From the NCBI RefSeq assembly GCF_001465835.2, contig NZ_CP013661.2, positions 1,232,501-1,296,500 of the forward strand: a DNA stretch of 64,000 nucleotides. Reading direction: 5' to 3'. The DNA is from Planococcus kocurii (GTDB taxonomy: Bacteria; Bacillota; Bacilli; Bacillales_A; Planococcaceae). This document shows, one piece after another, positions 4,288 to 31,228 of the stretch (its first letter is position 1; each line of letters opens with the position of its first letter). The notes under the pieces were generated by a model. That model did not search any database and was not told where the DNA came from. It saw only the letters and a program-made list of their open reading frames with translations. Made by a program: the position numbers and the translations under genes.

Positions 4288-5289
4288 TTAAACTTTTTTA
4301 TAAATTACTAGCGTGAAATCGTCTTGGAATTGCGCATTTTGCATTCGTTCAAGCTCGTCGTAAACATATTGCACAATGGCTTGTGCCGGTTCTGTTTTTT
4401 TATGCTCAATTAACTCATAAATAACTTCGCGTTCGATAAACCCTTCTTCATTTCGGCCTTCAGTTACTCCGTCTGTCATCATGATGACCAAGTCACCATT
4501 TTCTAAATCGACTGTATGTTCTTCATAGACCGCGGCGGGGGATACCCCTAACAGTAGACCTTTTGCATATAACTCCGTAAATTTATTGTCTTTTGCACGA
4601 TATAAAATAGCAGGTTCATGTCCTGCTGAGCCATAAGTTAAACGCGCTCGTTTAGCATCGTAGTTCCCATAAAACATAGAAACGAACATCGAGTCATCAA
4701 TACTTTTTTCAACAATTCGATTAATGACACTTAATACGTCTTTGGGTAGCGCATGTGCACTGTTCAAACTATCCATACCAAATTTAATCATAGACATGCA
4801 AAGAGCAGCCGGAAGGCCTTTGCCGATTACATCCGCAACTGCCACCCCAGCATAGCCTTCTTGGTCACTAACAAAATAAATATAATCCCCATTCATTTTT
4901 CGCGCAGGGATAGAAAGAAGGCCGATATCCAAACCTTCTAATAAAGGTAATTTAGTTTTCAGCAAGGTTTCTTGGACATTTGCTGCCAAATCCATTTCTA
5001 CTTTTAGCTCTTCCTGTTGTTTGATAAGACTTTGTCGTTCTTGAAGTGCCAATCCGTAATTGATCATCATTTCAATCAAAAAATCAAATGAATGCCAGAC
5101 TATATCTGGCAATTCACCATAAAGCTCTTGAATTGCTACTTTATGCATGCTGATCACTTCTTCAGGAGCGATATTCTCCAAGATGAGCTGTCGGCTAAAA
5201 TTTTGGCCGACATACAAATTTTGTTCTGTTTGTTTTTTCATGTATTCATTTAAAATCTCTTTATATTGATTCTCGATTTCCTGAACCAT
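4288..5289 (-). CDS. rsbU: RsbU, PP2C phosphatase activating sigma-B
   Basis: 333 residues. The N-terminal helical RsbT-binding domain (about 1-85) is followed by a helical linker (KQQEELKVEMDLAANVQETLL) and a PP2C domain (about 118-333) with GDYIYFVSD, VADVIGKGLPAAL, MMTDGVTEG and DDFTLVIYK. It dephosphorylates RsbV-P when RsbT binds. ATG at 5289, 12 bases after the rsbT stop. Confidence 0.95.
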   Translation of the reverse strand: MVQEIENQYKEILNEYMKKQTEQNLYVGQNFSRQLILENIAPEEVISMHKVAIQELYGELPDIVWHSFDFLIEMMINYGLALQERQSLIKQQEELKVEMDLAANVQETLLKTKLPLLEGLDIGLLSIPARKMNGDYIYFVSDQEGYAGVAVADVIGKGLPAALCMSMIKFGMDSLNSAHALPKDVLSVINRIVEKSIDDSMFVSMFYGNYDAKRARLTYGSAGHEPAILYRAKDNKFTELYAKGLLLGVSPAAVYEEHTVDLENGDLVIMMTDGVTEGRNEEGFIEREVIYELIEHKKTEPAQAIVQYVYDELERMQNAQFQDDFTLVIYKKV

Positions 5290-5301
5290 TGGGTGTTCCC
5301 C

Positions 5302-5703
5302 CTAACGAAGCCACTTAGTAGCTCGTATATCTGTGCCTTCACCTATACTAGTTTCGATTTTAAAATCATCCATTAACCGCTTAACGCCTGGAAGTCCTGC
5401 TCCCAATCCGCCAGAAGTTGTAAAACCATCTTCCATCACTTGACGGATATCCGGAATCCCTGGACCATTGTCTGCAGCAATAATCAAAATGCCTTTAAGG
5501 CCATTTTGGGTTAACTGTTGAATTTCGATCCTGCCTTTTCCAGCATATAAATAAATATTGCGCGCAAGCTCGCTGATAGCCGTCGTAATACGGGCCTGGT
5601 CAACCGTGCCAAAGCCAAGCTCTTTCGCTACATTGCGTCCGAGTTGTCGTGCAGCAACAATATCCCATTCTGTTAAAATTTCAACTGAGGACTCACCGTT
5701 CAT
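5302..5703 (-). CDS. rsbT: RsbT, serine/threonine kinase of the stressosome
   Basis: A 133-residue GHKL-fold kinase: N box ITTAISELARNIYLYAG, G1 ADNGPGI and G2 GGLGAGLPGVKRLMDDF. It phosphorylates RsbS and RsbR and, once released from the stressosome, activates RsbU. It begins two bases after the rsbS stop. Confidence 0.95.
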   Translation of the reverse strand: MNGESSVEILTEWDIVAARQLGRNVAKELGFGTVDQARITTAISELARNIYLYAGKGRIEIQQLTQNGLKGILIIAADNGPGIPDIRQVMEDGFTTSGGLGAGLPGVKRLMDDFKIETSIGEGTDIRATKWLR

Positions 5704-25228: not shown

Positions 25229-25431
25229 GCTTTACACCCCATTTACTAGAAATACATGACCTTAGTAATGGGTTACCCTTATTTCTTAATTTTCAGACAA
25301 TAAAAACAGGTATTTGTTCATATATTTTTTATACACCTAGGAATAACCGATCGATTCTATTAAAACCGAGAAAGCTACTATGCATGCCCCATGTCATTGA
25401 TTTACCAAGAACTTGACGACAACAAACTCGC

Positions 25432-25470
25432 AAAAAAGCCCATCACTCTTCATGATAGGCTTTTTCTTTT
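25432..25470 (-). terminator. Terminator after the GNAT-aminotransferase gene
   Basis: Stem GCCTATCA/TGATGGGC (with a T-G pair) followed by a T tract on the minus strand; the gene's stop codon is inside the hairpin. Confidence 0.8.
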
Positions 25471-26999
25471 GTATGATAGCGCTGATAGACGTCGTGAAAC
25501 TCGAGAAAATGCTGCCAATCCTTTTCGAACTCGGGTTGGATGCAAGAAACTTGGAACAACTGACGCACTTTCAAATAACTGCTGGCACAATGTAACTCAA
25601 ATCCTGAAAGATGAGCATCTTCGACTAAAAATCGAGTCTCTTCTATTATTTTAAATGTGCGAGACGTCGGGTAGCCAGTAGCCAAGTTTGGCCAGTCTTT
25701 CGTATCTTCTTTCATTTGTATAAACCGTTGTTTTAATCGTTCATATCGCGCAGGATACGCTTTTAATGCGCGATGCATGCTTTCTAATAAACTTGCAGAA
25801 AACGTAAACGGTACATCTGTTGCATAAAGCCCCAAATCCAAATAACTTGGCAAGTTGTCGTCTGGATCAATTTTATGGCTACTAAAAACGATAGCGACTC
25901 CACTTAATGTTCCAAGTGCTTTGCCACTCGTTGCTGTCGCAAGCCACACATTTTCCAATGACAACGGTACGGCACCAAAACTGCTAATGCAATCTAAACA
26001 CAATTTCACATTTCGCTGTTTACATGTATCAGCTAGTATACGAAAATCATTTAATTGACCAGTAGACGTTTCGCCATGAGCCATCAAAACCCAACTGACA
26101 TTCTCTTGTTCCAGCTGACGCGCTATTTTTTCCATTTGAAAAGCTTGACCCCACGCTTCTTCAACTACCTCAAATTCCATGCTTAATCGCTGTGCTTGTT
26201 GGACTAACCGTTTGCCAAATTCGCCATTTACTAAAATCAGCCCTTTGGAGTTTAGCCGCTTGATTTGCCCAAGCATTGCTTCGTTTGCTAAAGTGCCACT
26301 CCCTGAAAGCAGATGTGGAATCATTTCCGTCATTTCTTCGAGCATGCGGTCTACTTCTTGTCGAACTTCACGAAAAGCCGCGGACCTGTGAGAAATAGGT
26401 GCTTCTTGAAAAGGAGTAGCGAGTTCCGCAGTTAACGCCACAGGACCAGGTAAAAATAAGCGGCGCTTTGCTTGTAACCTCGCTGCGACAGAATCATTGT
26501 ACTGATGACGTGTCGTGACCATTGGAACAAAGACAGCTGCGCCTGTCCCCATTGGTTCCGCAAATGCTCGAAAGCCCAGCTGTCCATACAGTTTCATCTG
26601 ACGGACTGTTCCGGAAATCACTGCCGAGTCAAACCCTTGCTCGAGACAATAATCGGACAGGGCGCGTGCTAAAAGGAAAAAAACACGCCCATTCCGATGT
26701 TCTTTTCGAACGGCCAGCAAACGGATTTCACAAACCTTACCGGCATCTGGTAGGAACTCTTCAATAGATCCAATTTTGAGATCCAACGAAAAAGGACGTT
26801 CAGAACGTAGCGCAATCATTCCAACTACCTCCACTCCTGACAACACAATTAAGTAGGTATTCTGTTTATGAAATAGATCCGTGCGCGTCCCACTGTCATT
26901 TGCTTGGTGTTGAGGAATTTCTTCCACAAAGGTTTCGTAGTTTAAACGCGCAATGTCCTTAAATTCCGCCTCGGTTCGAGCAACTTTGCACCAATACAT
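25443..26999 (-). CDS. Fusion protein: N-acyltransferase (GNAT superfamily) plus class V PLP aminotransferase
   Basis: 518 residues from the ATG at 26999, with GGGAGG nine bases upstream; the frame's earlier ATG lies within the next gene. Residues 1-165 look like a GNAT fold of the acyl-synthase kind (LNYETFVEEIPQHQ; EIRLLAVRKEHRNGRVFFLLA; LYGQLGFRAF). Residues 178-518 are a class V (fold type I) aminotransferase: LFLPGPVALT, HGETSTGQLND (His308-Thr311), CLDCISSFGAVP (Asp336) and the PLP lysine in TSGKALGT (Lys360), so both halves look catalytically intact. It begins 16 bases after an FAD oxidase gene. The reaction is unknown; a PLP product acylated by the fused domain is an inference. Confidence 0.85.
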   Translation of the reverse strand: MYWCKVARTEAEFKDIARLNYETFVEEIPQHQANDSGTRTDLFHKQNTYLIVLSGVEVVGMIALRSERPFSLDLKIGSIEEFLPDAGKVCEIRLLAVRKEHRNGRVFFLLARALSDYCLEQGFDSAVISGTVRQMKLYGQLGFRAFAEPMGTGAAVFVPMVTTRHQYNDSVAARLQAKRRLFLPGPVALTAELATPFQEAPISHRSAAFREVRQEVDRMLEEMTEMIPHLLSGSGTLANEAMLGQIKRLNSKGLILVNGEFGKRLVQQAQRLSMEFEVVEEAWGQAFQMEKIARQLEQENVSWVLMAHGETSTGQLNDFRILADTCKQRNVKLCLDCISSFGAVPLSLENVWLATATSGKALGTLSGVAIVFSSHKIDPDDNLPSYLDLGLYATDVPFTFSASLLESMHRALKAYPARYERLKQRFIQMKEDTKDWPNLATGYPTSRTFKIIEETRFLVEDAHLSGFELHCASSYLKVRQLFQVSCIQPEFEKDWQHFLEFHDVYQRYHTKEKAYHEE

Positions 27000-27015
27000 G
27001 ATCTTCCGCCTCCCT

Positions 27016-28131
27016 TCAGCTTCTAAATGCATCTTCTACTTGATAAAGACTCAAATCGATATCAACAAGTTCCCCAAGTGCGAGTTTTGCTAGTTGCCCT
27101 CCCAAATAAGGACCTGCAGTCAGACCTGAAGCGCCAAGTCCGTTTGCCACATAGAAGTTTTCGTAGCCCGGAACTTGACCAATAAATGGCAATGCACTTG
27201 TGGTAGCTGGACGAAATCCGGTAGCAGCACCCGCCATTTCCGTTTGTCCAAGCCCAGGTGCTGCTTCTAATGTTTTATCTAGAATGTGGTGAATACCGCC
27301 CGCTGTTAATTTGTCATCAAAGCCTACTCCGTTTTCATGGGTAGCTCCAGCAACAATTCTACCGTTCGCAAAAGGCACAATGTATTGACCGTAAGGAACC
27401 ATAGCAACTGGCCAATCACCTGTACTCTGTTCATCTGCTTGCAACTGAAGAATTTGCGCTTTTTGTGGCACAATATCTAAATCTAATTCCAAGGGTTTGA
27501 ACAAATCTGCAGCCCATGCGCCTCCTGTCGAGATGACTCGGTCTGCATAGATTTTTTGTCCTTCTACTAGAACGCCAACCACTTGTGAGTTTTCTACAAA
27601 CAATTCAGCATCGCCGGTTAAACGCTCTGCTCCAAGTTTTACAGCCGAAGAAATCAAAGCGTCTCGAATGGCTTTTCCATCCACTCGAGCCGCTCCGCTG
27701 ACCCAAAGCGCTCCATATTCCTCTGTCGCATACGGAAAAAGGGCTATTGTTTCTTTTGATGACAGTCTCTTGATGTCTCCCATTTCAGGTGCATCCACTC
27801 TTCGTTCATATGCTTTTTGCTCCATCTTATCTAGTTTGCTCTCTTCATGGATGCTAACGATGCCGACTTGTTTGTAACCCGTATCGGTTTCACCTAAAGC
27901 TTCAAGCTCACGAATCAATTCAGGATAATACTTGGCACCGCTTTTCGCTAGTCCGTACCATGCTTTGTTTCTTCGCTGCGAAATCCATGGACAAACGATA
28001 CCCGCTGCCGCTCCCGTTGCTTGTCCTTTATCGCCTCTATCTATTAAAGTAACTGACGCTCCAGCTTTGGCTGCATGGTAGGCAGTAGAGGCTCCTAAAA
28101 TTCCTGAACCAATAATAATTAATGATTTCAT
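27016..28131 (-). CDS. FAD-dependent amino acid/amine oxidoreductase (DAO family)
   Basis: 371 residues from the ATG at 28131 (MKSLIIIGSGILGASTAYHAA), after GGGTG. The Rossmann dinucleotide motif is at residues 6-12, a second FAD loop is DRGDKGQATGAAAGIVCPW, and the C-terminal GFRPATTSALPFIG resembles ThiO-type glycine oxidases and D-amino acid dehydrogenases. The substrate is probably a small amino acid or N-substituted amino acid. It is the first of two genes with the GNAT-aminotransferase fusion. Confidence 0.87.
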   Translation of the reverse strand: MKSLIIIGSGILGASTAYHAAKAGASVTLIDRGDKGQATGAAAGIVCPWISQRRNKAWYGLAKSGAKYYPELIRELEALGETDTGYKQVGIVSIHEESKLDKMEQKAYERRVDAPEMGDIKRLSSKETIALFPYATEEYGALWVSGAARVDGKAIRDALISSAVKLGAERLTGDAELFVENSQVVGVLVEGQKIYADRVISTGGAWAADLFKPLELDLDIVPQKAQILQLQADEQSTGDWPVAMVPYGQYIVPFANGRIVAGATHENGVGFDDKLTAGGIHHILDKTLEAAPGLGQTEMAGAATGFRPATTSALPFIGQVPGYENFYVANGLGASGLTAGPYLGGQLAKLALGELVDIDLSLYQVEDAFRS

Positions 28132-29301: not shown

Positions 29302-30564
29302 ATGAGTAAGAAAGCATTATTTATTTCGGATCATGGCGATCCATTAGCTGAACTCGGTGGCAAACAAGCGGGTGGCCAAAATAATTACGTAAAGCAATTA
29401 GCACTCGCATTAGAAAACAAAGGATGGCAAGTAGACGTCGCAACTCATTGGTGCGATTCTTCAGCACCTCAAATAGAAACGTTCGGGACAGCATGTCGAG
29501 TAATCAGACTGGAATCTGGACATAAAGGATTCGTGTCAAAAGATGAGATGTACACAATGCTTCCTGCCTTTTATGAAGAGCTAAAAAGCACAGTAAATCT
29601 GGAATCCTATGATATTGTCCATACTCATTATTGGTTATCTGGTTTAATCGGTAAAAAATTGAAGAAAGACTTTGGATTGCCTTATGTACACACCGCTCAC
29701 TCACTCGCATGGGCAAAAGAAAAAGCAACAGGAGTTCATGATCAGCGCCGGATAAATGCAGAAGGAGCTATTTTAAAAAATGCAGACTATGTACTTGCTA
29801 CTACTAATAACGAAAAACAATTGATCCAAACTTTTGTCAACTCTCCTTCTCCCATCAAAGTTATCCCCATCGGTGTAGACCGAGCATTTAAAGTACGTGG
29901 AAACCGATCACATTTACGCAAAAAATTCGGTTACCACAACCCTCTCTTTGTTTTTGCCGGAAGACTGGAAGTAACTAAAGGAATTTTTACGCTGCTAAAA
30001 GCTTTTCAATTACTAGTAGAAAAAACGGGTCCTACCGATACACCTTATTTGATTATTGCTGGTGGAGATGCTGAATCTATCGATTTGGAAACAAATTTAC
30101 CTAAAGACAAAAAACTGCGTGAAGCCGTTCGCGGGATTGAACATCGCATCGAGTTCTTAGGTTCGCAGTCTCAAGAAGAGCTGGCATTATTATTTAACTC
30201 AGCTACAGCTACAATTGTACCAAGCTTTTATGAATCATTCGGAATGGTCGCCGCAGAAGCCCAGGCCTGTGGCAGTCCCGTTATTGCTTCAGATATTGGC
30301 GGATTGAAAAACGTTGTTCAAGACGGTATTACCGGTCTGTTAGTCGAAACAAAAAATGAAATTGACTTGGCGATTGCGATGGAGGTCTTGTCAGCAAACG
30401 CATTATTAACTGAACGATTAAGTCGTCAAGCCGTGCAAATTGCGCGCAAAGATTTTGACTGGGACTCTATTTCCAAACGCATAAATACATTGTACGAGGT
30501 GATTATCGATGAACAGAGCAACGCATTTGTTGGCAACAGATTTAGACGGAACGCTCGTCGGTGA
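29302..30564 (+). CDS. Sucrose-phosphate synthase-like GT4 glycosyltransferase
   Basis: 420 residues. A GT-B, family GT4 enzyme. The N-terminus ISDHGDPLAELGGKQAGGQNNYV carries the sugar-phosphate loop typical of sucrose-phosphate synthases, and the nucleotide-sugar motif is PSFYESFGMVAAEAQACG (E-x7-E, about 310-325). SPS joins UDP- or ADP-glucose to fructose-6-phosphate. The next gene, overlapping by 56 bases, is an SPP-type phosphatase, which strongly supports the pair. An alternative product, such as another disaccharide or glucosylglycerol, cannot be excluded. Confidence 0.83.
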   Translation: MSKKALFISDHGDPLAELGGKQAGGQNNYVKQLALALENKGWQVDVATHWCDSSAPQIETFGTACRVIRLESGHKGFVSKDEMYTMLPAFYEELKSTVNLESYDIVHTHYWLSGLIGKKLKKDFGLPYVHTAHSLAWAKEKATGVHDQRRINAEGAILKNADYVLATTNNEKQLIQTFVNSPSPIKVIPIGVDRAFKVRGNRSHLRKKFGYHNPLFVFAGRLEVTKGIFTLLKAFQLLVEKTGPTDTPYLIIAGGDAESIDLETNLPKDKKLREAVRGIEHRIEFLGSQSQEELALLFNSATATIVPSFYESFGMVAAEAQACGSPVIASDIGGLKNVVQDGITGLLVETKNEIDLAIAMEVLSANALLTERLSRQAVQIARKDFDWDSISKRINTLYEVIIDEQSNAFVGNRFRRNARR

Positions 30565-31228
30565 TCGCAATAGTTTAAAAAAATTGTTGGATTTTTATAA
30601 TGCCCAAACTTATACAGTTTCGTTAATCTATATTACCGGGCGTCATTACCAATCTGCCCTATCTCTCATGACAGAACAAAATTTACCGGTTCCCCACGTG
30701 CTTATTACAGACGTGGGAACCGGCATTTACATAGGCGATTCATTAAAGCCAGACCTTGAATGGTCTGCATTCTTGGAAAAGTCTTGGATGCCCCAACAAA
30801 TAGATGCGATTGCAAGAGTGATTCCAGGTTTGGTTTCGCAAAATTTGCCAATTACTACACGCTGTTCTTACTTCGCTTCAGACTTAGCCATTGTAGAAGC
30901 TTTTCGTTCACAACTAAATAAAGCCGGCATTCCTCACAAGCTCATTTACAGTGGCGGTCGTGATGTCGATATCCTGCCATCCGGTAGCGGCAAAGGACAG
31001 GCTCTTCAATACATTTTGGATAAGTACAAGCTAAATACAGCTAAATTGTTAGTGGCCGGTGATTCTGGAAATGACGTAGAAATGTTGACACTGGGTTTTC
31101 CTTCAGTCATCGTTGGCAATGCACAGCCTGAACTACTCAAACAAACTGAGCACCCGTCTATTTACCGGGCCAAACAAGAATTTGCAGGCGGCATTCATGA
31201 AGCTTGGCGCTATTTTTATACAGATTGA
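30509..31228 (+). CDS. Sucrose-phosphate phosphatase-like HAD hydrolase
   Basis: 239 residues, HAD superfamily. The nucleophile motif LLATDLDGTLVGD (Asp11, Asp13) and VAGDSGNDVEML are characteristic of the SPP (S6PP) family; YITGRHYQSALSL is motif II. It overlaps the synthase gene by 56 bases, in another frame, so translation is coupled. It would remove the phosphate from sucrose-6-phosphate. Confidence 0.83.
   Translation: MNRATHLLATDLDGTLVGDRNSLKKLLDFYNAQTYTVSLIYITGRHYQSALSLMTEQNLPVPHVLITDVGTGIYIGDSLKPDLEWSAFLEKSWMPQQIDAIARVIPGLVSQNLPITTRCSYFASDLAIVEAFRSQLNKAGIPHKLIYSGGRDVDILPSGSGKGQALQYILDKYKLNTAKLLVAGDSGNDVEMLTLGFPSVIVGNAQPELLKQTEHPSIYRAKQEFAGGIHEAWRYFYTD

Follow-up and report, generated by a model that had tools for sequence, protein, structure and literature searches.

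The window analysed here is a stretch of 64,000 nucleotides from Planococcus kocurii, whose genome size is 3.49 Mb. On its minus strand lies a gene for a DAO-family FAD-dependent oxidase of the ThiO/6pxs-like kind (27016..28131; 371 aa when read from an ATG at 28131, with a longer frame up to 28200), followed after a gap of 16 bases by a gene that runs from an ATG at 26999 to a stop at 25443 and encodes a 518-aa fusion of a GNAT domain and a class V PLP domain. The fusion matches Pfam Acetyltransf_5 (1.5e-8), FeeM (1.6e-7) and Aminotran_5 (2.3e-6). Residues 1-170 (26490..26999, minus strand) are assigned by Pfam and by the structure model to a GNAT-fold N-acyltransferase-like domain resembling FeeM, AHL synthases and OlsB, and about residues 180-518, together with the stop codon (25443..26460, minus strand), to a class V (fold type I) PLP domain. 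In the model of the whole fusion (pLDDT 90.2) both halves fold confidently and core residues are kept. A stem-loop with a U tract on the same strand (25425..25475), which contains the fusion stop codon, is a probable terminator; the hairpin has a folding energy of -19.2 kcal/mol (z = -4.9), no equally good structure arises in 200 shuffles, and a simple terminator scan does not list it. The fusion start 16 bases past a DAO-type oxidase, which was part of the original prediction, is thus borne out, and so is a strong hairpin, probably the predicted terminator, at the fusion end.

Full-length fusions are present in 49 of the 398 genomes sampled from the class (rows counted by hand) and also in six genomes of one family from another class, which indicates that the fusion is real and no artefact. 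Within Planococcus, 37 of 46 genomes have it: 26 carry type A, which is close to the window fusion, 11 carry the more distant type B located elsewhere, and nine have none. By hand count no genome among the 46 bears both types, so that A and B look as if they replace each other. At about 5000-5400 of locus L093 there is also a probable GNAT-domain remnant of the fusion, in a genome of a family that, as far as sampled, has no other copy; it was considered as a standalone GNAT and set aside, as it is a short frame ending in a stop. A description of the fusion or of its operon was not found in the open-access literature searched.

Pfam FeeM (PF21926) and Acetyltransf_5 match all of the 34 fusion homologues scanned, and the FeeM profile scores 31.7 bits against the whole window fusion, above the Pfam cut-off of 27. 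The GNAT-domain model (pLDDT 89.7) aligns with the AHL synthase TofI (Z = 17.9 over 160 residues), FeeM (17.4 over 163) and BjaI (17.2 over 170), and an ordinary GNAT, SACOL1063, ties with these on fold (18.1 over 142). The pyrophosphate loop Q/RxxGxG/A that characterizes ordinary acetyl-CoA GNATs is found in none of the 34 homologues. The likeness of the GNAT half is to FeeM, to AHL synthases and to acyltransferases of the OlsB type, and the earlier view of the N terminus as more acyl-synthase-like than an ordinary acetyltransferase agrees with the FeeM matches and with the missing loop; the structure comparison does not separate the FeeM and AHL-synthase folds from that of SACOL1063. Because FeeM and AHL synthases take acyl-ACP or acyl-CoA, the GNAT half likely transfers long-chain acyl groups by analogy.

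The PLP half has the fold of the AEP transaminases and their relatives (Z about 31-32). PhnW-AepZ is the top NCBIfam match in 31 of 31 fusions, with 7.8e-34 and 117.6 bits in the window fusion, which is below the equivalog cut-off of 360.8. The PLP Lys, the Asp and the phosphate cup expected of a class V, fold type I enzyme are all in place: Lys360, Asp336, His308, the G-x-G-T cup (G233/G235/T236) and Thr399 are invariant in the fusions, and the first three, singled out as key residues in the original prediction, do not vary in 31 homologues. The substrate-binding positions are different. All 33 fusions compared have Gln483 at the position of the substrate Arg in the C-terminal FR(I/V) motif, and S-x-Y where related transaminases have PGK; the Arg is present in the solved AEP transaminases, which the fusion fails to match in this respect, and is retained by 11 of the 13 further class V proteins in the comparison. 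In the class V fold this Arg binds the substrate carboxylate or phosphonate, and its replacement by Gln therefore suggests that the substrate of the PLP half has probably changed relative to the AEP transaminases; the invariant Gln483 also speaks against an amino-acid transaminase of the ordinary kind. The Gln was rejected as a mark of the fusions only, since it also occurs in two nucleotidyltransferase-AEP-transaminase fusions (L074, 5480-7318, and L192), where the motif reads FQIANIGHV, unlike in PntC (6pd1), and suggests another altered substrate. A match of the whole fusion to Mycoplasma penetrans MetRS (9os7) was likewise discarded, as only the PLP half is common to both; the N-terminal domain of 9os7 has a nucleotidyltransferase-like fold, not a GNAT fold (PMC13215547).

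Two explanations turn on these residues. The PLP half might have given up transamination and work as a substrate-binding scaffold presenting an amine to the GNAT half, as a lyase or as a decarboxylase-like enzyme, as the Gln and S-x-Y substitutions in 33 of 33 fusions could indicate; we regard this as fairly unlikely, for all the PLP-site residues checked are invariant, a constraint not expected of a dead scaffold. It is very improbable that an ordinary acetyl-CoA GNAT is combined with an AEP-type transaminase for the detoxification of phosphonates or amines. The consistent PhnW-AepZ match and the fold tie with SACOL1063 are what one would expect from such an enzyme, but the CoA loop is absent, the PhnW score reaches 117.6 of the 360.8 bits required, the substrate Arg is lost and phosphonate genes were not recognised among the neighbours read.

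The oxidase gives a strong DAO match (3e-60), its best PDB match is 6pxs (4.8e-80), which we take to be an iminodiacetate oxidase, and it scores 186.6 bits against the ThiO equivalog, below the cut-off of 250.8. It had been proposed that oxidase and fusion constitute a two-gene small-molecule pathway, in which the oxidase makes or removes the precursor of the acylated amine. The two genes adjoin in 26 Planococcus genomes with gaps of about 13-25 bases, and amines are within reach of both enzymes. However, the oxidase is present in all 46 Planococcus genomes, including nine without any fusion and 11 whose type B fusion lies elsewhere. Five fusion-less sites (L167-L171) show the same locus, with genes for cardiolipin synthase, a squalene/phytoene synthase-like protein, S6PP, a glycosyltransferase, MBL, the oxidase, an XRE-type regulator and MFS, and no fusion gene after the oxidase. 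Moreover, among the loci surveyed no oxidase adjoins the fusion outside Planococcus, and in related genera the type A fusion adjoins regulator and MFS genes without an oxidase (L053-L055). By the refuting condition set in the original prediction, a separation of the two genes in nearly all relatives, the pairing fails beyond this one lineage. The oxidase is core to the genus and no conserved partner of the fusion, probably a neighbour with its own job, and the two-gene pathway is quite improbable. Of the earlier interpretation, the acyl-synthase-like N terminus and the intact PLP site are supported, and the unit with the oxidase is not. The same conserved Planococcus block, which contains the MBL, squalene/phytoene synthase-like and cardiolipin synthase genes, also has a possible sugar-phosphate synthase/phosphatase pair (29302-31228 of the window): the gene of a GT4 glycosyltransferase and that of a sucrose-6-phosphate phosphatase (S6PP) family protein (PF05116, 7.8e-65), which overlap by about 55 bases.

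It is evident that the usual neighbour of the fusion is another gene. Directly upstream and on the same strand, a PF02660 (PlsY-family) gene is present in 32 loci, which represent two classes and seven or more families; in most cases it overlaps the fusion or is no more than about 40 bases away. The families concerned are f1, f11, f16, f41, f44, f57 and f62, to which a Cytobacillus spongiae plasmid is added; several genera of Planococcaceae are included, and f62 (L178 and L179) belongs to the other class. In L179 the PlsY gene comes in two pieces in the open-reading-frame finder. On the plasmid, RefSeq names the genes in order as glycerol-3-phosphate acyltransferase, class V PLP enzyme and LTA synthase family, and the overlap is 4 bases. 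A gene for an LtaS-like, sulfatase-family phosphotransferase follows in seven loci (L061-L063, L065, L080, L085 and L177), and in a scan of two of these copies the LtaS model is covered over almost its whole length at 640-657 bits (cut-off 970). The OlsBA-like arrangement of an N-acyltransferase with an adjoining O-acyltransferase is therefore found in these 32 loci, outside the window locus.

The linked copies score 86-142 bits against PF02660, above the Pfam cut-off of 24.1, and three of them score 90.4, 128.4 and 135.0 bits against the PlsY equivalog TIGR00023, below its cut-off of 137.2. In the window genome the corresponding paralogue is unlinked (L126, G000:C2:2377368) and scores 103.1 bits against this model, compared with 204.2 for the housekeeping PlsY. 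In a tree made by a quick method and containing many long branches, linked and unlinked paralogues are split from housekeeping PlsY by a branch with support of 98. Most paralogues read GARN where housekeeping copies read GATN, which places Arg at the position of Thr41 in Aquifex PlsY. This Thr binds the acyl-phosphate carbonyl, and the alanine mutant is severely impaired (PMC5700162). GARN was rejected as a universal mark of the paralogues, as the copies of L085, L177 and f62 have T at this position. By these sequence comparisons the PF02660 paralogues are distinct from housekeeping PlsY. The window genome also encodes a third PlsY-family protein (L125, 4327-4971; G000:C2:2333389), which has a GASN motif, is divergent from the other two and lies beside genes like those of Met biosynthesis.

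The association extends to genomes in which the genes are apart. A further 20 genomes have the fusion but no PlsY linked to it, and in 19 of these a GARN-type copy lies elsewhere; in G164 the fusion is present and no GARN copy was found. None of 28 fusion-less genomes of other families has a GARN-type best match, and within the family about 15 of 22 fusion-less genomes have kept GARN-type PlsY, which excludes a strict dependence of the paralogue on the fusion. Locus L148, for example, resembles L081 and retains GARN-type PlsY (1483-2061, compared with 6611-7189 in L081), and a YtxJ-like gene follows with no fusion gene in between; only the fusion has apparently been lost. The PlsY paralogue, persisting in this way, thus serves some function also where the fusion is absent. 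It seems that the fusion needs the paralogue and that the reverse does not hold; such a dependence, if real, is one-way, and the counts of co-occurrence are inflated by shared ancestry and confounded by phylogeny.

With moderate confidence, we interpret the fusion as an enzyme with two activities in a pathway, so far undescribed, whose product would be a membrane lipid with an amide linkage. It is probably part of such a route because its usual partner across families is a PlsY variant and not the oxidase. The domain identities, the invariant residues, the conserved PlsY adjacency and the co-occurrence are observed; from these we infer the acyl donor, the acceptor, the order of the steps and the product. 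The PLP half would handle an amine, forming or reshaping it, and the FeeM/OlsB-like half would acylate this amine with a fatty acid residue, for which acyl-ACP is the probable donor. That the PLP half makes an amine that the GNAT half acylates, the chemistry already put forward for this gene, is plausible. The PlsY-family paralogue may add a second acyl group, from acyl-phosphate, to a hydroxyl group, either on the same small molecule or on one linked to it, and in some lineages the LtaS-like enzyme may use or decorate the lipid outside the cell. In the lineage of the window, the PlsY paralogue would be supplied from elsewhere in the genome and the oxidase would stand outside the pathway. The equally good fold match of SACOL1063, an ordinary GNAT, tells against the amide-lipid reading, as do the GARN-type copies kept in fusion-less genomes, the T in the copies of L085, L177 and f62, the case of G164 and the phylogenetic confounding of the co-occurrence. 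An unlikely alternative is that the product of the fusion is soluble, an N-acyl amine or N-acyl amino acid serving as a signal or surfactant, and that the PlsY gene is merely co-regulated: FeeM and AHL synthases are among the top Pfam and fold matches, yet the linkage to the membrane-lipid enzymes PlsY and LtaS persists across families, and the PlsY paralogue is specific and divergent.

A more specific form of the amide-lipid pathway, which we offer as a long shot, would give in three steps (PlsY paralogue, PLP half, GNAT half) an analogue of phosphatidic acid with an amide at position 2. Here dihydroxyacetone phosphate or serinol phosphate would be acylated by the PlsY paralogue, and the PLP half would convert the ketone to an amine, which the GNAT half would N-acylate; the resulting amide phospholipid precursor could serve LTA-type polymers. 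An order in which PlsY acts first would fit a paralogue that outlives the loss of the fusion. If the amide-lipid pathway is true, its product would belong to a lipid class absent from a review of aminolipids (PMC11631085), and the extra PlsY copies labelled glycerol-3-phosphate acyltransferase in databases would gain a use.

The routes in that review, which lead to ornithine, glutamine and glycine lipids, employ OlsB-type (GNAT-type) N-acyltransferases with PlsC-like O-acyltransferases, OlsA, encoded alongside (PMC11631085). The system described here, found in Firmicutes, is similar in having an N-acyltransferase that matches Acetyltransf_5 beside an O-acyltransferase gene, and is different in that the O-acyltransferase is PlsY-like, not PlsC-like, and the N-acyltransferase shares one polypeptide with a PLP enzyme. 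It is not assignable to OlsB/OlsA, because the O-acyltransferase is of another family and the PLP fusion is new to the scheme. The linked PlsY gene itself is a PF02660 member with Ser35 and a GGKG-type loop conserved; however, it stays below the equivalog cut-off, has Arg for Thr41 in most copies and varies at the clamp residues Arg45 and Asn180. The LtaS-like gene, third in seven loci, shares nearly the full length of the LtaS model in the two copies scanned but does not reach its cut-off. With PhnW and PntC-AEPT, the fusion has the PLP-half fold (Z about 31) and the PLP-binding residues in common, whereas the invariant Gln for Arg and S-x-Y for PGK set it apart, as does, from PntC-AEPT, a GNAT domain in place of the nucleotidyltransferase. 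It shares with FeeM and the AHL synthases the FeeM profile match in 34 of 34 homologues, the lack of an acetyl-CoA loop and a fold that SACOL1063 matches equally well, and differs from them in carrying a class V PLP domain and in the linkage of its gene to lipid genes.
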